Assembly (NCBI GenBank): GCA_029820995.1
Contig: JALGUG010000016.1
Location: forward strand, 1-35,539
Direction: 5' to 3'
Origin: Candidatus Zipacnadia bacterium
GTDB lineage: Bacteria; Armatimonadota; Zipacnadia; JALGUG01
Length of the DNA stretch: 35,539 nt
The notes below the pieces were generated by a model. The model searched no databases. It saw only the letters and a program-made list of their open reading frames with translations, and was not told the origin of the DNA. The number at the start of each line of letters is the position of its first letter. Within the stretch, counting starts at the first letter, position 1. Positions 4,688-15,433 of this stretch are shown in pieces. A program made the position numbers and the translations under genes.

Positions 4688-5653
4688 ATGTCTCAGCTCG
4701 ACTTCCTCCTGGCGCTGCAAGAGAGCCGGAGCCCGCTCCTGACGGTGGTCATGGGCGGGGCAACGATGTTGGGCTCGGAGTATTCTTTTCTCGCGGTCAT
4801 TCCGGTGCTGTATTGGCTGGGGAACCATCGGTGGGGGTTTCGGCTGCTGGCAGTGGTGATGGTGAACTTCTGGCTGAATCACATGCTCAAGGGGGTGTTC
4901 GGCACCGAGCGCCCCTTTGTGGCGCATCCCAAGGAGATTACCCCGTTGCTGAAGTGGACGGCAGGCGGCTTCGCCTTCCCCAGCGGCCACGCAGAGAGCG
5001 CGGTGGTGTTCTGGGGGTTCCTGGCGTGGCACTATCGGCGCGGTTGGCTCTGGTTGGTGTCGCCGGCGGCGATCATTCTCATTTGCTTATCCCGGCTTTA
5101 CCTCGGGTTGCACTGGCCCGTGGACATAGCAGGCGGCGCGGCAATCGGGCTGGGGCTCTTGGTGGCGGCTCTGGTGCTCTGGCACGCGCTGGACTACTAC
5201 GGCGCGCGGCTGGGACCGGGTTGGGGAACGTTGGCGGCTCTGGTGGGCCCTCTGGCGCTGGCGGCGGCCGGGGGGTTCGCGATCCAGGCAATGAAGATCG
5301 CGGGGGTGCTGTGGGGCGCAGGGCTGGGGGAGGTCTGGCGCACGGAACGGCTGGTAAGTCGGGAGGCCTTGACAGCGCGACAGCGGAGTGACTCGGCGCG
5401 CCGGGGTCCTCCCGGCGCACCCACTAGGGTGGCCGTGGAGCGGGGCGAAAGGTGGAAGTTCGCACTGCTTGGCCTTGTCGGGCTGGGCGTGCTATACTTG
5501 CTGCCCAAGGTGCTGTTGCCGGAGTCGGAGGGCGTCCTGATGGTGCGATATGCCCTGTTGGGCGCGTGGATGACGTGGGTTATTCCGCAGTGGCTGTTCC
5601 GGCATGCGGCGGCCCGCGAAGCTGCCACGAGGCCGAAGGAGGAAGACACGTGA
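4688..5653 (+). CDS. PAP2 superfamily phosphatase, integral membrane
   Basis: Tripartite motif KGVFGTERP (KX6RP), FPSGH, SRLYLGLHWPVD, with multiple TM segments. Confidence 0.9.
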   Translation: MSQLDFLLALQESRSPLLTVVMGGATMLGSEYSFLAVIPVLYWLGNHRWGFRLLAVVMVNFWLNHMLKGVFGTERPFVAHPKEITPLLKWTAGGFAFPSGHAESAVVFWGFLAWHYRRGWLWLVSPAAIILICLSRLYLGLHWPVDIAGGAAIGLGLLVAALVLWHALDYYGARLGPGWGTLAALVGPLALAAAGGFAIQAMKIAGVLWGAGLGEVWRTERLVSREALTARQRSDSARRGPPGAPTRVAVERGERWKFALLGLVGLGVLYLLPKVLLPESEGVLMVRYALLGAWMTWVIPQWLFRHAAAREAATRPKEEDT

Positions 5654-5868
5654 AGGAACGGGTGCAGTTGTTCACGCAGGCCTTCGAGATGAGTGACAAC
5701 GAGTTCTCGGAGGAGATCAACACGTGGCTCGCCTCACAGGAGGGCGAGCTGGTGGATGTGCAACTGATCATCCAGGCGGCGATGCAAAGTGCGTCGGCCG
5801 GGGCGGTCACGAGAATGGCGAAGGTGCATAAGGTTGTACTCGTGGTTTGGCGGCCGAAGGAAGCCTAG
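5650..5868 (+). CDS. Small conserved-looking 72-aa protein (possibly Cse60-like); GTG start overlaps preceding stop (GTGA)
   Basis: VKERVQLFTQAFEMSDNEFSEEINTWLASQEGELVDVQLIIQAAMQSASAGAVTRMAKVHKVVLVVWRPKEA; the ORF track start at 5452 is inside PAP2 and unlikely. Family resemblance from memory only. Confidence 0.6.
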   Translation: MKERVQLFTQAFEMSDNEFSEEINTWLASQEGELVDVQLIIQAAMQSASAGAVTRMAKVHKVVLVVWRPKEA

Positions 5869-5967: not shown

Positions 5968-8904
5968 ATGCGTCTGAGGCAGAGGGCAGTATTGTTGGCC
6001 ATGGCGGTGCTATGGGCTGCGTCGGCGGCAGCCCAGCAACCCGCTCCACCACCGGTTCCGACGGCGCCCGAACTCACGGGAGCCGAGCAGAAGGCCGAAA
6101 AGGAGTTCGAGTTCGCCAACGGCCTCTACGAGAAACAGATGTGGGAGCCGGCGGCGGAGAAACTGTTGGCGTTCGCGCGAGCCCATCCGCAACACGCAAA
6201 TGCGCCGCTAACGCTGTTCCGGGCCGGGCAGTGCTACTACAAGCTCAAGCGATACGGGGAAGCGCTCCCGCTGTACGAGCAGGTTGCGCAGGATTACCCG
6301 CAGAGCGCGGAAGCAGACGAAGCCCTGTATCGGGTGGGCGAGTGCCATTTTCGGCAGGAGCAGTATGCAGAGGCAGCCGGAGCCTTTAGAGGGCTGGCTC
6401 AGAGGTTCCCCAAGTCCCCTCTGGTCGCCGCGGCGCACTACTGGGCCGGAGAAAGCCTGCAGACGCTGCAGCAATACGATCAGGCCAAGAAGGAGTACGC
6501 CCTGTCGGTCCAGGCGGACGCGAAGGGCGAGCTGGCACCGTATGCGCTGTATAAGGGAGCGATATGCGAGCTGACCAGTGGGCGGCCGGACGCGGCGATG
6601 CCGCTGCTGCAGCGAGTGCTGAAGGACTTCCCGAAGTCGAAGGTGGCCGCGGGAGCGCGGTATAAGCTGGGTGACGTGCTGTATGCGAAGGAGGATTACG
6701 CAGGGGCAGCTCAGCGATACCAGGACGTGCTGGACCAAGGCGAGAAGTCGGAGTTTGGGCCGCTGGCGCTGACGGGGCTGGCATGGTGCCACTACGAACA
6801 GAAGCACTGGGCGCAGGCGGAGAAGCTGTTTCGGCGCTTCGTGCGCGAATACCCGCAGCATCAGAGCCGGAGCGAGGCCCTGTTGCGGGCTGCGGACTGC
6901 GCATATCAACAGGAGAAGTACAAGGAGGCGGCGGCCGGGTACGGTCAGATAGCGGACAAGGGGCCGCCGGAGTTGCGGGTGGAGGCGCTGTTCTGGCTGG
7001 GAGCGGCGCGGAGGCGGCTGAAGGACACCGCGGGGGCTCTGGAGGCGTACAAGCGACTGACCAACGAGGCGCCGAAGAGCAAGTTTGCGCCGCGAGCCTA
7101 CCTGGCACTGGCCGACTCGTACCTGGAAAAGGACGACCTGAACCGGGCGGAGAGCGCGTACCAGAGAGCGACGGAGAGTGAGGAGCCGGCGGTTAGGGCG
7201 CGAGCCGAGTACGGGCTGGCGGTCACGCGGTACCGGAAGACGAAGTCGCTGGAGGAGCTACGGCGGCTGGAGAAGTTGATCGCGGAGGCACCCGAGTCGG
7301 CGCTGGCGGCGCGGATGGCGTACCAGACGGCACACTTTTACTTTGCGGAGAAGCAGTATGCGGACGCCGGGCGCGTGCTGAAGGTGCTGCTGGAGCACCA
7401 CCCTGATGACGAGCACGCGGCCGAGGCGCTGTATCTTCTGGGGCAGGCCTGTGAGGCGCAGCAGGATACGAAAGGGGCACGCCGGGCGTACGAGCGGCTG
7501 GCGAGAGAGCATCCCGAAAGCGAGTATGCGGCGCAGGCGCTGGGAGCGGTCGCGGGTCTGGCGGCGCAAGAGGGCGACCTGAAGGCGGCCGAGGCGACCG
7601 TGCAGCGTCTGCGGCAGGAACACCCGCAGAGCACGGCGGCCGCGGCGGCGAACTTGCGCGTGGCGGAGGCACTGCACCGGGCCGGAAACTGCCCGGCGGC
7701 GCGCCCGCTGTATGAGGCAGCGCTGGCTTCGAAAACGAACGACGAATCCGCGGCGTACGCGCTGTTTGGGTTGGCGTCATGTGATCTGGCGGAGAACCAG
7801 CCGGAACGAGCGCTGGAGCGGTACAGGAAGATCGTGGCGGACTACCGGGACACACCGGCAGCGCCCCCGGCGCAGTTCCGGATCGGCTATTGCTACACGC
7901 AGCAGGAGGACTTCAAGGCAGCAGTTGAGGCCTACGAGGAGTTCTTGAAGAGGTATCCGGAACACGAGTTGGTGCCACAGGCTTTGTACGAGTGCGGATG
8001 GGCGCATTTGCAGCTCGGGCAGTTGGAACAGGCGCAGCGCCGATACCAGGCGGTACTGGACAAGTACGCCAAGTCCGAGGCGGCGCCGTTGGCGATGTTC
8101 GGGCTGGCGGAGATCAAGTATGAGCAGAAGGACTACGTGCGGGCCTTGGCGCTGTATGAGCGGGTGCTGACGGACCACCCGCAGGCAGACTTTCTGGATG
8201 AGGTGAACTACAAGCGTGGCTGGGCGCTGCTGCAGAGGCAGCGACCGGACGAGGCCCTGGCGGCCTTCCGGGAGAGTCTGAAGTTGGGCGGCGAGGGCGA
8301 TGTCGCGGCGGATGCGACGTACCAGATTGGGTTGATCGAGTATGGCAAGAAGGACTACGCGGCCGCGGCTGAAACGCTGAGACCGTTCCTGGACAAGTTC
8401 CGGCAATCGTCGGTGGGATCGCCGGGGCTGCTGGCGCTGGGCGAGGCGCGGCTGGCGCAGGACGACTGGAGGGGGGCGCTGGAGGCCTTCGACTTGGTTC
8501 CGACCGAGGGGCTCGAGGCGGCGCTGGCGGCGCGCAGAGCGCTGGGGCGAGGGCGATGCTTGCAGGGGCAGCACAAGTACGACAGAGCGACAGCGGAGTT
8601 CCGCGTGGCGGCGGATCAAGGCGAGGGCGAGACCGCGGCGCGGGCGCTATACGGGCTGGCGGAGTGCCTGGAAGCGCAGAAAAAGCTCTCAGAGGCGGCA
8701 GAAACCTTCCTGAAAGTGGCGATTCTGCACGGGAACAGCGAGCTGGCGGCACCAGCGCAATACAACGCCGGTCGGTGCTACCAGCAGGCGAAGGACGTCA
8801 CGAACGCTCGGAAGGCATATGAAGCGGTGATCAGGGACTTCCCGCAGGCTGCAGAGTCGGTGAAGCTGGCGCGACAAGCGCTTCAGGCGCTGCAAGGACA
8901 ATAG
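5968..8904 (+). CDS. Large secreted/periplasmic tetratricopeptide-repeat protein (YbgF/BamD-type TPRs)
   Basis: Signal peptide MRLRQRAVLLAMAVLWAASAAAQQ, then many TPR units such as APLTLFRAGQCYYKLKRYGEALPLYEQVAQDYPQSAEADEALYRVGECHFRQEQYAEAAGAFRGLAQRFPKS. Confidence 0.9.
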   Translation: MRLRQRAVLLAMAVLWAASAAAQQPAPPPVPTAPELTGAEQKAEKEFEFANGLYEKQMWEPAAEKLLAFARAHPQHANAPLTLFRAGQCYYKLKRYGEALPLYEQVAQDYPQSAEADEALYRVGECHFRQEQYAEAAGAFRGLAQRFPKSPLVAAAHYWAGESLQTLQQYDQAKKEYALSVQADAKGELAPYALYKGAICELTSGRPDAAMPLLQRVLKDFPKSKVAAGARYKLGDVLYAKEDYAGAAQRYQDVLDQGEKSEFGPLALTGLAWCHYEQKHWAQAEKLFRRFVREYPQHQSRSEALLRAADCAYQQEKYKEAAAGYGQIADKGPPELRVEALFWLGAARRRLKDTAGALEAYKRLTNEAPKSKFAPRAYLALADSYLEKDDLNRAESAYQRATESEEPAVRARAEYGLAVTRYRKTKSLEELRRLEKLIAEAPESALAARMAYQTAHFYFAEKQYADAGRVLKVLLEHHPDDEHAAEALYLLGQACEAQQDTKGARRAYERLAREHPESEYAAQALGAVAGLAAQEGDLKAAEATVQRLRQEHPQSTAAAAANLRVAEALHRAGNCPAARPLYEAALASKTNDESAAYALFGLASCDLAENQPERALERYRKIVADYRDTPAAPPAQFRIGYCYTQQEDFKAAVEAYEEFLKRYPEHELVPQALYECGWAHLQLGQLEQAQRRYQAVLDKYAKSEAAPLAMFGLAEIKYEQKDYVRALALYERVLTDHPQADFLDEVNYKRGWALLQRQRPDEALAAFRESLKLGGEGDVAADATYQIGLIEYGKKDYAAAAETLRPFLDKFRQSSVGSPGLLALGEARLAQDDWRGALEAFDLVPTEGLEAALAARRALGRGRCLQGQHKYDRATAEFRVAADQGEGETAARALYGLAECLEAQKKLSEAAETFLKVAILHGNSELAAPAQYNAGRCYQQAKDVTNARKAYEAVIRDFPQAAESVKLARQALQALQGQ

Positions 8905-9015
8905 AGCCGAACAGCAAACCGGTGAGGCCCCAGGCAAGGTGGGGCGAGGGAAGAACAGACCGCCAAGCTGAGGGCGGGGCTGAATCCATTTCTGTGATGC
9001 TTGAGGTGTAGTGGT

Positions 9016-9660
9016 ATGCCACCGACTTCGAGATTTCCTGTGCTAATGTATTTCGAGCGGGGCGGGGAGTGGATGTGGCCGTTGCTGATTTGCTCGATTG
9101 TGGCAGTGGGGGTCATCCTGTACAAGTTGTGGTCGTTCCTGACGCTGCGTGCCAATGTTGATGCCCTGCTGAAACAGACGGCGGAACGGGTCGCTGCGGG
9201 CGAGATTGACAGTGCGGTGAAGCTGTGTGAGGCCTCGCGTTCGCCGGCTGCGCAGGTTGTTGTCGCGGGATTGCAGAGAGCCGGGGCCGACCGCAGGGCC
9301 ATTCGGGAGGCGGCCGAGGATGAGGGCCAGCACCAACTGGGGCTGTTGGAGAGCGCACTGCCAACGCTGTCTACGGTGGCGAACATCTCGCCGCTGCTGG
9401 GGTTCTTGGGGACCGTTACGGGCATGATCCAGGCGTTCATGGCGATCTCGGAGAAGGGATTGGGTGATCCGGCGGTCGTGGCGGCTGGGATCTCGAAGGC
9501 GCTAATCACTACGGCCACGGGGCTGATCATCGCCATTCCGTGCTTTGCGGCGTACAACTATTTCGTGGCGCGGGTGAGGTCGTTCGGCCTGGAAATGGAG
9601 CGAGCTGCTTCGCACGTAGTGAATCTGCTGACGCCGGGGGCGGATCAAGATGCGGTTTAG
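9016..9660 (+). CDS. MotA/TolQ/ExbB proton channel family protein
   Basis: GGEWMWPLLICSIVAVGVILYKLWSFLTLRANVD...LLESALPTLSTVANISPLLGFLGTVTGMIQAFMAISEKGLGDPAVVAAGISKALITTATGLIIAIPCFAAYNYF: canonical ExbB/TolQ C-terminal TM pair. Start 9016 or 9046. Confidence 0.93.
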   Translation: MPPTSRFPVLMYFERGGEWMWPLLICSIVAVGVILYKLWSFLTLRANVDALLKQTAERVAAGEIDSAVKLCEASRSPAAQVVVAGLQRAGADRRAIREAAEDEGQHQLGLLESALPTLSTVANISPLLGFLGTVTGMIQAFMAISEKGLGDPAVVAAGISKALITTATGLIIAIPCFAAYNYFVARVRSFGLEMERAASHVVNLLTPGADQDAV

Positions 9661-10069
9661 AACTCGGCTGAGTACTGAGAATACGATTCCGATGGCGAGC
9701 ATGGCGGACATTGCGTTCCTGCTCATTGTGTTCTTCATGCTGACCAGCACTTTTGCGAAGGACGCGGGGCTGGACATCAGCTTGCCGTCAGCGGCGTCGC
9801 GGGACTTGCTGCCCAAGCGGGAGGTCAGCATTTGGGTGACGCGAGAGGGCGAGGTTTTGCTGGATCGCCAACCGGTGGCGCCGGAAAAGCTGCCGGCAGC
9901 GATGGCGGCCGCGCTGTCGCAGACTTCGTTGAAGGCGGTCACGATACGAGGAGACCAAGGCGTGCGTTACGGCATCATTGTGGACATCATGGACATCGCC
10001 AAAGGGCTTGGCGCGTCCATCACGCTGGCTGCGGTATACCGCCAACCTGCTGCTGAGCCCCCGCGATAG
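9650..10069 (+). CDS. ExbD/TolR biopolymer transport family protein
   Basis: IPMASMADIAFLLIVFFMLTSTFAKDAGLDISLPSA with the conserved TM aspartate; overlaps the ExbB ORF end. Confidence 0.93.
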   Translation: MRFRTRLSTENTIPMASMADIAFLLIVFFMLTSTFAKDAGLDISLPSAASRDLLPKREVSIWVTREGEVLLDRQPVAPEKLPAAMAAALSQTSLKAVTIRGDQGVRYGIIVDIMDIAKGLGASITLAAVYRQPAAEPPR

Positions 10070-10098
10070 AGCCGTCATTTGGGGGCGCCGGAGGGGCC

Positions 10099-12690
10099 AT
10101 GCCGAGTCGTCCCAGATTCCTGCAGTGTTTGCTGGCCTCGCTATTCCTCCACGTGGTAGTGTTCCTGGCAGTGCCGATCGGCACGCCGGAACCGCGGGGT
10201 AAGATGTTCTGGAGGCGTATCTCCTCCACTTCCCCCGTCAAGTTCATCAAGATCTTCGAGCCGCCACCCCGACCAGAGAAAAAGCCGACGCCCGCCAAGG
10301 CGAAGCAGCGAGTTCGGGTGCGCCGGCACCGGGTGGTGCGGCGCCGTCCGCGTCGGCGCCCGAAGCGGGTGGTGCAAAAGCCGCCGACACCACCGGCGCT
10401 TCCCGAACCCCCGAGGCCGGATGTGGACCGGCCAGCGGAGGCCCCGGCACTGGAGGCGAAGCTGCTCCCGCCACCGAAGCCGGAGCTGGCTGAGCCGGAG
10501 CCGATGCCGACACCTCCGCCGGTGCCCGTTGAACAGCCCCGGCCGGAGGCGGAGCGCGCGCCAGCGGAGTCGCCGGAGCTGCGGCCAGAGATGGCGCAAC
10601 CCGTTGAGCCGGCCGAAACCGCGCGCGAGGTGGCCGAGACGCCGGCTGGACTGCAACCCACCGCGCCACAGCCTGTGGCAGAGAAGCACCTTGAGCCGGC
10701 TGATATGAAGGTCCCCGGACCGGTGAGTGAGAGTCCGGCGCTGCGCCTGGCGGCGCTTCCAACAGAGGCGGTGCCGGGGGCTCCGACCGCGAAGCGAGAG
10801 GAGCCGGCGTCGGGCCCGCTGACGGAGACGCAGCCGAATATCGGGCTGCCGCTGGGGGAGGAGGCGCGCAGCGCGCTGCCGGGGAGCCAGGACGTGAAGG
10901 GGACACCGCAAGCGGCGCCGGCGCCGGTGTTCGGTCCGGGGGGTCAGCCGGCGAGCGTGGCGGTAGGGCCGCTGGAGGCGCCGACCAATAAGCCTTCGGG
11001 GCCCAAGGCGCTGCGAGGGGTGGCGTGGGGAGAGGTGGGGACGCCGGGAGCGCGACGCGGGGAGCCCGGAGAGCCGGGCGATTACGCCGGGGGGCTGCGA
11101 CCCAGTCTGGCGCGGGAGTTCGACCGGCCGGGAGACGGAAGAAGCCCGGGCCAAGCGGGAGGCGGGACGCCGGGGCCGGCCGGGCCGCCGGCGGGGGCGC
11201 CGGTACGGGTGGCAATGGCTCCGCATGGGGACCGGGCAGTGGCGCCGATGGGGCCCCAGCGCGGCGGTGCAGAGGGTGGAGGGCAGCCGCGGGCGCAGAT
11301 CACGCTGGGAGGCGAGGGCGGAACCGGCGGCGGGCCGCGGGGTCGGCGAGGAATGGGCGGCGAAGGGGGCGGAGGGGGCTCCGGAGCGGGCACGGGATCG
11401 CCGCGGCTGGGGGTGGAGTTTGGGGGACGGACGGGCTCGCCGTTCGCGCGGAGAGGGGGCAGCGGCGGCGTAGGCGAGGGTGGGCCGGGGGGCGGTTACG
11501 GAGGCGGCGAAGGCGGGCCAGGGCAGGGAGGCCGGGGCGGCCCGGTGAGTACTCCCGGGGGGCGCGGGGCAGGCGGACCGGGCACTGAGCCGGGGCCGCT
11601 GGGGCTGCCGACGGGTACCGAGAAGGAGGGAGTACCCGGCTACGCATGGCTGCCGGTGGGCAAGGGTGTACCGGGCGGACTGGGCGGGGAGGGATTTGGC
11701 GGTCCGCACCGACGCGGAATGGGAGGCGGACACGGTGGGCCGAGGGTCGACTCGCCGGATATTGGTGGGGTCCCCGAGGGCCGGGGCGCGGGCCCACCCG
11801 GAGGCAAGACCGTCGGCCAGGGCGGACGAGGAGGCGAGGGCAAGGAGCCCGGTGGACCGGGGAGCTTGGGGCCTTTGAGAGTCGGACAGGGCATTACAGG
11901 GAAGCCGGGACCGGCAGGGCTGCTGATCGGCGCCGCGGTCGGTCGGGGGATTCCACTGCTGCCGCCGGGCTGGGGCAAACATGCCGTACCGGGAACACCA
12001 GGAGCGCCGAAGGCCGCACGCACACTGCCCAGCGGGACGCGGATCCTGCCCGGATTGGGCACCGGGGCCGCCTCGCCGGGGGGCCTGTACGTGGACCTGA
12101 CCGGGACCTTCTACATGCCCATGGGCGTCACGAACAGCGACTACAATGTGGACGCGGTCGGGGTCGAGAACCTGCTAAACGAAATCCGCAAGCGGACGAA
12201 GGTGCGCGTCACGGTGACCCGCCGCGAGGTGCCGCTGACATACGAGAACATCAAGGACAGCCCGATCCTGTATCTGGTGGGGCACAAGGCATTCCAGTTT
12301 TCAGACGCAGAGCGAGCGGCGTTGCGCAAATACGTGGAGAGCGGGGGCACGATTTTTGGGGAGGACTGCCACGGCCCGTTCGGGAGCTGCTTCCCGGCGG
12401 AGATGCGGCGGATCTTCGGGCGACCGCTGCGCCAGATACCGCTGAACGATGAGTTGTTCAAGTCGTTCTATGTGCTCAATCGTGTCCCGCCCGGCGACAT
12501 GCAGGAGCGCTATCCCTTGCAGGGCTTGCAGCGGCCCGACGGGACCTGGGCCGTGATCTGGTCGCGGAACGACTACGGCTGCGCGTGGAAAGCGGCGCCG
12601 GGCAGCTACGTGCTCCCGCCCACGAAGGAAGAGGCTTTCCGGATGGGCGTGAACATCTACATTTACACGCTCGCGCACTGGAGGCGGTGA
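10099..12690 (+). CDS. TonB-like N-terminal TM + Pro/Arg-rich + Gly-rich linker + C-terminal DUF4159-like domain (863 aa)
   Basis: N-terminus FLQCLLASLFLHVVVFLAV has an SxxxH pattern in the TM helix as in TonB; long EPPPRPEKKPTPAKAK.../PEPMPTPPPVP stretch; Gly-rich ~11040-11900; C-terminus GLYVDLTGTFYMPMGVTNSDYNVDAVGVENLLNEIRKRTKVRV...SPILYLVGHKAFQFSDAERAALRKYVESGGTIFGEDCHG...AVIWSRNDYGCAWK...RMGVNIYIYTLAH matches the DUF4159 pattern as I know it. Confidence 0.85.
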   Translation: MPSRPRFLQCLLASLFLHVVVFLAVPIGTPEPRGKMFWRRISSTSPVKFIKIFEPPPRPEKKPTPAKAKQRVRVRRHRVVRRRPRRRPKRVVQKPPTPPALPEPPRPDVDRPAEAPALEAKLLPPPKPELAEPEPMPTPPPVPVEQPRPEAERAPAESPELRPEMAQPVEPAETAREVAETPAGLQPTAPQPVAEKHLEPADMKVPGPVSESPALRLAALPTEAVPGAPTAKREEPASGPLTETQPNIGLPLGEEARSALPGSQDVKGTPQAAPAPVFGPGGQPASVAVGPLEAPTNKPSGPKALRGVAWGEVGTPGARRGEPGEPGDYAGGLRPSLAREFDRPGDGRSPGQAGGGTPGPAGPPAGAPVRVAMAPHGDRAVAPMGPQRGGAEGGGQPRAQITLGGEGGTGGGPRGRRGMGGEGGGGGSGAGTGSPRLGVEFGGRTGSPFARRGGSGGVGEGGPGGGYGGGEGGPGQGGRGGPVSTPGGRGAGGPGTEPGPLGLPTGTEKEGVPGYAWLPVGKGVPGGLGGEGFGGPHRRGMGGGHGGPRVDSPDIGGVPEGRGAGPPGGKTVGQGGRGGEGKEPGGPGSLGPLRVGQGITGKPGPAGLLIGAAVGRGIPLLPPGWGKHAVPGTPGAPKAARTLPSGTRILPGLGTGAASPGGLYVDLTGTFYMPMGVTNSDYNVDAVGVENLLNEIRKRTKVRVTVTRREVPLTYENIKDSPILYLVGHKAFQFSDAERAALRKYVESGGTIFGEDCHGPFGSCFPAEMRRIFGRPLRQIPLNDELFKSFYVLNRVPPGDMQERYPLQGLQRPDGTWAVIWSRNDYGCAWKAAPGSYVLPPTKEEAFRMGVNIYIYTLAHWRR

Positions 12691-12875: not shown

Positions 12876-13406
12876 ATGGATCGAACGAGAAGAGCAGCAC
12901 TGACCGCACTACTGGTCGTCGCCGCGGCGGCGTCAGTGTGGGCCGGGCCGCGGAAGCTGAAGGCGAAGGTCGTGCGCGTCGAGAAGCCGTACGCGTTCCT
13001 GATCGTGGACTACAAGGGTAAGCGGACGCTGGTCGAGTGCGACACGGTGCGGGGCGATCTGTCGAATATCAAGCCGGGGATGCAGGTGGAGGTGGACGTG
13101 AAGCAGTGGCTGCTGCCGCTGAAGTGCGTGGCGGAGGGGCTGCGAGCGGTGGAGCTGAAGGACCTGGTGTACGAGCGGCCGGGTCCGGTACGGCTGGAGG
13201 GAGTGGTGCGGCACACGGACCCGGGTCGGCGAGCGATCAAGCTGCGACGCGATCACCGGGAGATCTATGTGCCGTATCAGGCCACGATCACGTCGGGAGC
13301 TTTCCGGGGCCGCTTCTACTCGCTGAGAACGGGGGCCTTCGTGCAGATCAAGGGTTGGGCCACCTCACCCACGGAGATCGTTGCACAGCACATTGACGTG
13401 CGCTGA
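12876..13406 (+). CDS. Secreted hypothetical protein, small beta-rich
   Basis: MDRTRRAALTALLVVAAAASVWAGPRKLKAKVVRVEKPYAFLIVDYKGKRTLVECDTVRGDLSNIKPGMQVEVDV...; ATG 12876 preceded by aaggagaga. Confidence 0.7.
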   Translation: MDRTRRAALTALLVVAAAASVWAGPRKLKAKVVRVEKPYAFLIVDYKGKRTLVECDTVRGDLSNIKPGMQVEVDVKQWLLPLKCVAEGLRAVELKDLVYERPGPVRLEGVVRHTDPGRRAIKLRRDHREIYVPYQATITSGAFRGRFYSLRTGAFVQIKGWATSPTEIVAQHIDVR

Positions 13407-13420
13407 GGCAACCGCAATCA

Positions 13421-15433
13421 ATGCCGTCAGAGAATCGGGCAGAGCGACAGGCTGAGAAACGGGGCCGCAAGGGGCAGGCGGCCCCGACTGCTGCCGCCAG
13501 GAGCGGCCCCTCATCGCGGGCTAATGAGGTCACGTGGCGGGGGATTCTGCTGGGGCTGGTGCTGATCCCTCCGAACTGCTACTGGGTGATGAAGGTGGAG
13601 GGGATCTGGCACTGGGGGCACCCCACGGCGGTCAGTCTGTTCTGGAACGTCGTGTTCAACCTGCTGGTTCTGGTGGGCCTGAACTTCGTCCTGAAGCGTC
13701 TGTGCCCTCGGTATGCGCTGACGCAAGCGGAGTTCATCACGATCTACGTGATGATTACGATCGCCTCGGCGCTGGTGGGACACGATTCGCTGCAGCTTGG
13801 CATTCCCAACCTGGCGCACCCGATCTGGTTCGCGACACCGGAGAATCACTGGGAGGAGCTGTTCTGGAGCAATCTGCCGACGTGGCTGACGGTGCGCGAC
13901 ATGAGGTCGCTGGAGGACTGGTACGACGGTGGCTCCACGCTGTACACGGCGCGGCACATCTCGGCGTGGGCGGGGCCAGTGCTGTGGTGGTGTGCGTTCA
14001 TCATGGCGCTGGGGCTGTGCATGGTCTGCCTGAGCACGCTGTTGCGCAAGCAGTGGACCGAGCACGAGAAGCTGGGCTATCCGATCATCACCTTGCCGGT
14101 AGCGATGACGCAGGACGGCGGCAACCGGGAGTTCTTTGCGCCGAAGCTGTTCTGGATCGGATTCGGCCTGGCTGCGTTGCTGGACCTCAACAACGGCCTG
14201 CACGCCTTCTTTCCGGTCTTGCCGCTGCTGGACGTGCGGCACGACCGGACGCACTTCCTTGACTTCCGAGGTTGGCAGGAGCCGTGGCACGTGCTGGGGC
14301 GCATCGGGGTTCCGTTGTACCCGTTCCTGTGCTGCCTGGGGTATTTCCTGCCGCTGGACCTGTCGCTGTCCATTTGGGTGTTCTTCGTAGTGCGCAAGCT
14401 GAACCTGGTGCTGGCGCGATGGCTGCCTCTGCCCTATCTCCCGCGAATGCCCTACTACAACGAGCAATCGTTTGGCGGTTGGTTCGCGATTTTCGCCTAC
14501 GCGATGTGGGTGGGGCGACGGTACTTCGTAGGGCTGTTACGGCAGAGCGTGCTGGGGCAGCTTTCGCGGGACGGCGCCGGGGAGTTGGTCAGCCACCGGG
14601 GGGCGTTCGTGGGCCTGGTGGCGGGAATGGCGTTCCTGATGTGGTTTTGCGTGCACGCGGGGATGACGGTCTGGGTGGTCGTGGCGTTCTTTGCGATCTA
14701 CTGGGTTCTATCCATCGGGATTACGCGGGTGCGGGCGGAATTGGGGCCGCCGGCGCATGAGATGGCGGGAGGGATGAACTCGGGGACGCTCATCACGCTG
14801 GTGGCGGGCACGCGCGGGACCGGAGCGCGGAATATCAGCATGTTCCCGATGTTCTGGTGGATGACCGGCAGGGGCTACCGGACGCACCCGATGCCCTGCC
14901 AGCTTGAGACCTTCAAGATGGCGGAACTGGCCGGCATGAGGCTGAACCGGCTGGGTCTGGCGATGGGGCTGGCATTCGCGGTAGGCGGGTTGACCAGCTT
15001 TTGGACCGGGATCTCGCAGACATATGCCGCGGGCAACAATCCGATGATCGGCCACAATTGGGGGCAGTGGCGACAGGCAGCGACGCGGCTGCAAGTGGCG
15101 ACGGGCACGGACTATGCGGCCCTGGCGGTTTTGGGAACGGCGTTCGGGTTCACCTGGATGATGATGGCGCTGCGGATGCGGTTCCTGTGGTGGCCGTTGC
15201 ACCCGGCGGGGTACGCACTGGCGATGAACTTCGGCGTGGAGTATTTCTGGTCATGTTTAGTCATCGCGTGGTTGGTCAAACTGATTGTACTGCGGTACGG
15301 CGGGTACAAGACGTATGCGAAGACGATGCCGGCGGTGTTCGGCATTCTGCTGGGAGAGCAGCTCCTGGGTGCGTTCTGGAGCGTGCTGAGTGTGGCACTC
15401 AAGCGCCCGATCTATGACTTCTCGCCCGGCTAG
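13421..15433 (+). CDS. Multi-pass membrane protein, DUF6785/DUF6784-like (OPT-transporter-like)
   Basis: 670 aa, many TM segments; VTWRGILLGLVLIPPNCYWVMKVEGIWHWGHPTAVSLFWNVVFNLLVLVGLN...LTQAEFITIYVMITIASALVGHDSLQL...; EHEKLGYPI and RAELGPPAHEMAGGMN stretches. Confidence 0.7.
   Translation: MPSENRAERQAEKRGRKGQAAPTAAARSGPSSRANEVTWRGILLGLVLIPPNCYWVMKVEGIWHWGHPTAVSLFWNVVFNLLVLVGLNFVLKRLCPRYALTQAEFITIYVMITIASALVGHDSLQLGIPNLAHPIWFATPENHWEELFWSNLPTWLTVRDMRSLEDWYDGGSTLYTARHISAWAGPVLWWCAFIMALGLCMVCLSTLLRKQWTEHEKLGYPIITLPVAMTQDGGNREFFAPKLFWIGFGLAALLDLNNGLHAFFPVLPLLDVRHDRTHFLDFRGWQEPWHVLGRIGVPLYPFLCCLGYFLPLDLSLSIWVFFVVRKLNLVLARWLPLPYLPRMPYYNEQSFGGWFAIFAYAMWVGRRYFVGLLRQSVLGQLSRDGAGELVSHRGAFVGLVAGMAFLMWFCVHAGMTVWVVVAFFAIYWVLSIGITRVRAELGPPAHEMAGGMNSGTLITLVAGTRGTGARNISMFPMFWWMTGRGYRTHPMPCQLETFKMAELAGMRLNRLGLAMGLAFAVGGLTSFWTGISQTYAAGNNPMIGHNWGQWRQAATRLQVATGTDYAALAVLGTAFGFTWMMMALRMRFLWWPLHPAGYALAMNFGVEYFWSCLVIAWLVKLIVLRYGGYKTYAKTMPAVFGILLGEQLLGAFWSVLSVALKRPIYDFSPG

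Follow-up and report, generated by a model that had tools for sequence, protein, structure and literature searches.

What does an ExbB/ExbD-type motor drive when the adjacent gene encodes a protein with a TonB-like helix at one end and a DUF4159 domain at the other? The question is raised by a locus in the window, that is, the whole 35.5-kb stretch of DNA analysed here, which lies on a 5.5-Mb MAG of 481 contigs. The first-pass annotation of the window had put this locus forward as a candidate for an undescribed system, possibly a pmf-driven device. A literature search found no published function for DUF4159 (PF13709).

Gene order and motor subunits

The locus comprises four co-directional genes in the order TPR protein, ExbB, ExbD, and DUF4159 transducer (Table 1). 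The first two genes are separated by 96 bp, ExbB and ExbD overlap by 11 bp, and ExbD is followed by the transducer gene after 29 bp; this is the spacing that an operon would be expected to show. The coordinates and gene calls of the first-pass annotation were right. Pfam assigned the four products to TPR_6, PF01618, PF02472, and PF13709.

Table 1. Positions of the four genes and of the transducer parts in the window
Feature	Extent	Position	Strand	Characteristics
Secreted TPR protein	978 aa	5968..8904	+	Signal peptide at ~residues 1-22; lipobox Cys absent
ExbB/TolQ motor subunit	219 aa	9001..9660	+	PF01618 (MotA_ExbB), E = 2e-32
ExbD/TolR subunit	139 aa	9650..10069	+	PF02472, E = 1.7e-25; TM Asp D20 (codon 9707-9709)
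Transducer	863 aa	10099..12690	+	TonB-type helix, linker, C-terminal DUF4159 head
N-terminal TM helix of transducer		10120..10173	+	S14xxxH18, codons 10138-10140 and 10150-10152
Motor-box-like segment VKFIKIF	residues 47-53	10237..10257	+	After helix, before Pro-rich linker
Linker		10261..12063	+	Pro/Arg/Lys-rich 55-110, Pro/Ala/Glu-rich 111-230, mixed 231-330, Gly-rich 331-655
DUF4159 head	residues 680-858	12136..12672	+	PF13709, E = 6e-35; flavodoxin/GATase1-like Rossmann fold

The TPR protein matched TPR_6 (E = 6e-81) in 12 separate stretches. Its nearest curated models were TPRs of the tol_pal_ybgF/CpoB type, and homologues occupy the equivalent position at at least 13 other loci. For ExbB, the ATG at 9046 is a likelier start than the one in Table 1. 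The ExbB sequence contains both threonine motifs (GFLGT and ITTATG), and the transmembrane Asp of ExbD, already recognized in the first-pass annotation, is kept in all 11 sequences checked. With these residues and the matches to PF01618 and PF02472, the pair qualifies as an ExbB/ExbD-type motor. Among NCBIfam models, ExbB scored 95.8 bits with tolQ and 67.4 bits with exbB, and ExbD scored 47 bits with tolR and 31 bits with ExbD, each value being under the respective cut-off.

Transducer arm and DUF4159 head

The likeness of the first transmembrane helix to that of TonB was borne out: when a profile of eight transducer N-termini was compared with E. coli TonB by hhalign, the match (E = 0.003) coincided exactly with the helix. 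The His was present in all eight sequences and the Ser in seven (Ala in G007), while SxxxH was found in every readable transducer N-terminus except one with an S-to-A replacement. As a control, we inspected all ORFs at these loci whose N-terminus contains a strong hydrophobic segment, 131 in total. Only 17 of them hold SxxxH, 16 being DUF4159 transducers (three with contig-cut N-termini) and one another ORF; the motif occurs in transducers more often than expected by chance. The motif of the transducer in one MAG (G243) lies in a different frame, indicating that the gene is frame-broken there. Of the SHLS pattern (S-x3-H-x6-L-x3-S), the window protein has the Ser and His, and the positions of Leu and the second Ser are occupied by V25 and T29 and are variable in relatives.

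Just after the helix, the alignment of transducer N-termini revealed a conserved V-x-F-V/I pattern. A motor box has been described (PMC12204202), and the segment VKFIKIF, judged by this pattern and its position, may represent such a box. The linker comprises about 600 aa in total. The long Pro/Arg-rich segment noted at first pass was found in residues 46-110 (26% P and 22% R), and the share of Gly reaches 33-40% in residues 331-655.

The C-terminal head scored 121 bits with PF13709 against a curated cut-off of 25.9. It matched the PDB member of this family, 4i66 (Hoch_4089), in sequence (E = 7e-13). An AF2 model built from 13 family sequences (pLDDT 81, pTM 0.83) had the same uncharacterised Haliangium protein as its best Foldseek match (E = 1e-13, TM ~0.8), followed by WrbA/flavodoxin, GATase1, and ThuA-like folds with low TM. 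The head and Hoch_4089 are thus alike in sequence and fold, but the latter is a small protein lacking both helix and linker, unlike the 863-aa transducer. Weak PDB matches to ubiquitin, haemoglobin, and designed TIM barrels were considered artefacts that arise from fusion or repeat chains.

A DUF4159 domain in place of the TonB C-terminal domain had been expected, and this was what we found. Pfam search of the 863-aa protein for TolA domain III, TonB_C, and VWA returned only DUF4159 and weak related Rossmann-type matches, and alignment of the head with E. coli TonB gave an hhalign E-value of 0.37. The vWA fold published for other transducers was not supported for this head, being absent from both the Pfam results and the 50 best Foldseek matches of the model. 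The possibility that DUF4159 is a transplanted N-terminal domain of TolB was dropped (hhalign E = 0.22). When the heads were compared with stand-alone DUF4159 proteins from the class (13 sequences), the two groups had framework residues in common (GH, GG, ND..W, and GN). The stretch EDSHGPF was specific to transducer heads, being replaced by DDNYG in stand-alone proteins, and could have a ligand or binding role. VIT-VWA-like proteins with a DUF4159-like C-terminal end were observed at two loci (L005:6977-9715 and L046:9950-12724), which again ties DUF4159 to VWA proteins.

We interpret the four genes as encoding a pmf-driven, envelope-spanning force transducer with a DUF4159 head and a secreted TPR scaffold or adaptor, and estimate the probability of this reading at roughly two in three. 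ExbB and ExbD would form the inner-membrane motor, on which the SxxxH helix of the 863-aa protein would dock in the manner of TonB and TolA. The ExbBD-TonB and TolQRA systems comprise a 5:2 motor with proton flow (PMC12905483), and by homology with them such flow would load the helix-docked transducer. The Pro/Arg- and Gly-rich linker would then span the periplasm, and the head, taking the place of the TonB/TolA C-terminal domain, would grip an envelope partner. It follows from the predicted topology that DUF4159 would be the periplasmic working end. The secreted TPR protein may act in the periplasm as a scaffold or adaptor, or as a receptor. The SxxxH helix, the motor residues, and the conserved gene order give good support to the pmf-driven nature of the putative transducer, as proposed at first pass. 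Gene content and order, domain identities, conserved motifs, and the patterns of co-occurrence and absence are observations; how the transducer is coupled to the motor, in which direction force acts, what is bound, and which partner is pulled are inferred.

Distribution of the operon

Scanning of contigs with a DUF4159 alignment revealed 27 loci. The same scan with the single 863-aa protein revealed none, which is probably explained by the location of most of its patterns beyond the conserved head. Named relatives belonged to Armatimonadota, a phylum usually counted among Terrabacteria, and included Candidatus Zipacnadia and candidate division WS1. The MAG of the window falls within this phylum, in the class to which the named Zipacnadia and WS1 genomes belong. 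In a survey of 291 genomes of the phylum, 17 of the 46 genomes of the class had a transducer scoring >180 bits; outside the class, this score was exceeded in G047, G250, and G105, which represent three other families. One more class genome (G022) contained the TPR, ExbB, and ExbD genes and the start of the transducer gene at a contig end, so that about 18 of the 46 have the fusion beside ExbB-ExbD. Three genomes (G243, G244, and G245) scored below 180 bits, yet ExbB, ExbD, and the transducer were present. The survey recorded ExbB-ExbD-transducer for family f34. The order TPR-ExbB-ExbD-transducer, complete or contig-cut, was observed within the class in G018, G036, G009, G012, G024, G007, and G290, and outside it in G047, G250, and G105. 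Conservation of the neighbourhood in relatives, on which the first-pass annotation depended, thus extends to many families of the phylum. The operon was missing from some near-complete class genomes (G001 and G014) and is therefore not essential to the class. At three loci of family f34 (L124, L125, and L126), one or two S41/PDZ C-terminal processing peptidases are encoded directly upstream of ExbB.

The ExbB sequences of carriers did not form one clade in the ExbB tree, and a single origin of the motors was not shown by it. The ExbB proteins of G018, G039, and G010 (L036:11275-11955, L148:8248-8922, and L149:2128-2754) represent a separate lineage with support of 100/99. Their operon is otherwise the same, and the heads are 57% (G018) and 47% (G010) identical to that of the window. 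This pattern suggests that the motor may have been replaced within one operon type.

Fusions of an SxxxH helix and DUF4159, about 480-510 aa long, were also observed in Poribacteria (L068:2351-3841, L070:6191-7645, L071:6308-7759, and others up to L076). This architecture is consequently not confined to Armatimonadota. The Poribacteria fusions adjoin macro-domain-like genes and, by sequence reading, DUF58-like genes; no ExbBD was found within about 7 kb.

The DUF58-like neighbour bears on another reading. DUF4159 is a recurrent neighbour of MoxR-DUF58-BatA modules, and the operon could encode a related envelope chaperone or assembly device, whose motor moves or unfolds a client. Consistent with this, a large BatA-like membrane protein precedes the stand-alone DUF4159 protein in the window genome (L004, by sequence reading), and one of the VIT-VWA-like proteins mentioned above (L005) ends in a DUF4159-like region. 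However, clustering of the neighbours of the Armatimonadota loci showed no such gene recurring beside the operon, and we consider a device of this type quite unlikely.

Propeller neighbour and relation to Ton, Tol, and vWA systems

In the neighbour clustering, a single partner recurred strongly. This secreted PD40 propeller (~345 aa) adjoins the locus in 13 class genomes, being convergent to the transducer gene in nine (G036, G009, G012, G024, G290, G289, G023, G004, and G030) and located upstream on the same strand as the TPR gene in four (G018, G039, G010, and G021). The existence of two arrangements argues for a functional tie. The best NCBIfam model for the propeller was TolB (234 bits, under the cut-off of 343), and its alignment with E. 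coli TolB (hhalign E = 2.8e-21) covered the TolB propeller only. All top 17 Foldseek matches of the propeller model (pLDDT 92) were TolB structures, and the strand pattern of the model corresponds to seven blades, compared with six in TolB. The propeller gene is not adjacent to the window operon; the best copy in the window genome is unlinked and located on contig C445 (43% over nearly full length). No propeller was seen beside the operon at the loci examined in other classes. Together with the TPR protein, the propeller is a natural candidate partner of the head and would be the likeliest further partner of the machine in many relatives. A caveat is the abundance of PD40 propellers in these genomes, where they constitute a large family.

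Since Omp85 was encoded in 39 of 41 class genomes, the class is diderm. The only other ExbB of the window genome is MotA in a flagellar cluster, and its assignment to TolQ was rejected. In several other carriers (G004, G009, G018, G023, and G024), the sole other ExbB adjoins a MotB-type OmpA domain. In many carriers, therefore, this locus encodes the only non-flagellar ExbB-type motor. Pal was not found: the only OmpA-domain match in the window genome is MotB beside MotA in the flagellar cluster, and nearly all OmpA-domain matches in the 41 genomes lie beside MotA-type genes. These matches were rejected as Pal, as those checked were MotB beside MotA-type genes (a few in G007, G012, G027, and G031 fell outside the neighbourhood check). 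TolB_N was detected in 3 of the 291 phylum genomes, with no carrier among these three, and the propeller stands alone. Both TonB_C and the plug of TonB-dependent receptors were absent from 8 of the 15 carriers searched, all these absences being called in draft MAGs.

The same data bear on uptake of the Ton type, in which the head would open a specialised outer-membrane transporter, or the ExbBD pair would also serve an ordinary TonB and TonB-dependent receptor. The helix is TonB-like, and contig C380 of the window genome (L159:1842-4720) contains a TonB-dependent receptor gene directly followed by the gene for a TonB that has an SxxxH helix of its own. No own ExbBD was found for this TonB, which may borrow the window motor, whose ExbB is the sole non-flagellar one in that genome, or its own motor may be unassembled. 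On the other hand, TonB_C and the plug are both missing in the eight carriers noted above, the head has no similarity to E. coli TonB, and receptor genes were not observed next to the operon, which makes Ton-type uptake unlikely. In view of the frequent lack of receptors and the recurrence of Tol-like parts, a role of the force transducer in envelope maintenance appears preferable to one in nutrient uptake.

Compared with TonB-ExbB-ExbD, the operon shares the motor, the SxxxH helix, and the proline-rich linker, but its head is not TonB_C and its carriers often have no TonB-dependent receptors. Its resemblance to Tol-Pal (TolQ-TolR-TolA-TolB-Pal-CpoB) consists in the TolQ/TolR-type motor, the TolA/TonB-type helix, the CpoB-like TPR protein, and the TolB-type propeller present in 13 relatives from the class. 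In contrast to Tol-Pal, TolA domain III and Pal were not found, the propeller has no TolB N-terminal domain and seven blades according to the model, and the TPR protein is encoded upstream of the motor and comprises about 900 aa. Tested by the features that define them as families, the locus falls outside both Ton and Tol-Pal, though it probably works like them.

Tol-Pal has been reported solely in Gracilicutes (PMC12204202), and most Terrabacteria diderms are described as lacking the well-characterised systems of outer-membrane attachment (PMC10628300). The motor locus, found in a phylum usually assigned to Terrabacteria, brings a new head together with TolQ/TolR-like and CpoB-like proteins and, in many genomes, a TolB-like one, while Pal is missing. 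This combination bears on the origins of TolA and TolB. A tentative and rather doubtful extension of our reading is a Pal-less Tol-like machine of Terrabacteria with a TolQR-type motor and a TolA-like arm. Its DUF4159 head would act, directly or via the TPR protein, on the secreted seven-bladed TolB-type propeller, so that the outer membrane would be organised or anchored in lineages from which a Tol system is considered absent.

The closest published loci are those of the vWA force transducers of the PVC group (Williams-Jones et al. 2025; PMC12204202), with genes for TPR, TolQ-like, and TolR-like proteins upstream. These transducers have an SHLS-type helix, a disordered linker, and a foreign head, and two TolR-like genes are frequent in PVC (PMC12204202). 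The upstream TPR, TolQ-like, and TolR-like genes, a helix with the Ser and His of the SHLS pattern, a disordered linker, and a head unrelated to TonB/TolA are common to both groups. Unlike the vWA transducers, the operon has a DUF4159 head of flavodoxin/GATase1-like fold, one TolR-like gene in the loci read rather than two, a Gly-rich linker of about 600 aa rather than one of about 100 aa, a TolB-type propeller beside many loci, and Armatimonadota as hosts. The general plan of TPR, TolQ, TolR, and an SHLS-helix transducer with a foreign head was published in 2025, with vWA as the head, and lay outside what the first-pass annotation could see. What is new is the DUF4159 variant of this plan, which is itself uncharacterised. 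A second kind of foreign head is thereby added to the vWA transducers, and exchange of the head, with the motor arm kept in common, seems to be a general rule. DUF4159 gains its first testable setting.

Motility has been suggested for the vWA transducers (PMC12204202), and the pairing of a TPR protein with a TolQR-like motor is a common theme of gliding or secretion motors of the Agl/Glt or Gld type. However, assignment of the operon to such motors is highly improbable: the match to the GltC TPR is very weak (19 bits), the neighbour clustering showed no recurrence of Glt, Gld, or T9SS genes in the vicinity, and many carriers have flagellar MotAB.

As for the genes flanking the operon in the window, a short ORF of about 72 aa (5650-5868) lies between a PAP2 gene and the TPR gene. 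Directly 3' of the transducer gene, the ORF at 12876-13406 encodes a small secreted protein whose match to DUF5666 is weak and under the threshold; this protein is not kept at other loci. Farther downstream, a DUF6785/DUF6784 membrane protein is encoded at 13421-15433; G036 and G009 have members of this family close to the operon as well, whereas those in G002 and G243 lie farther away.
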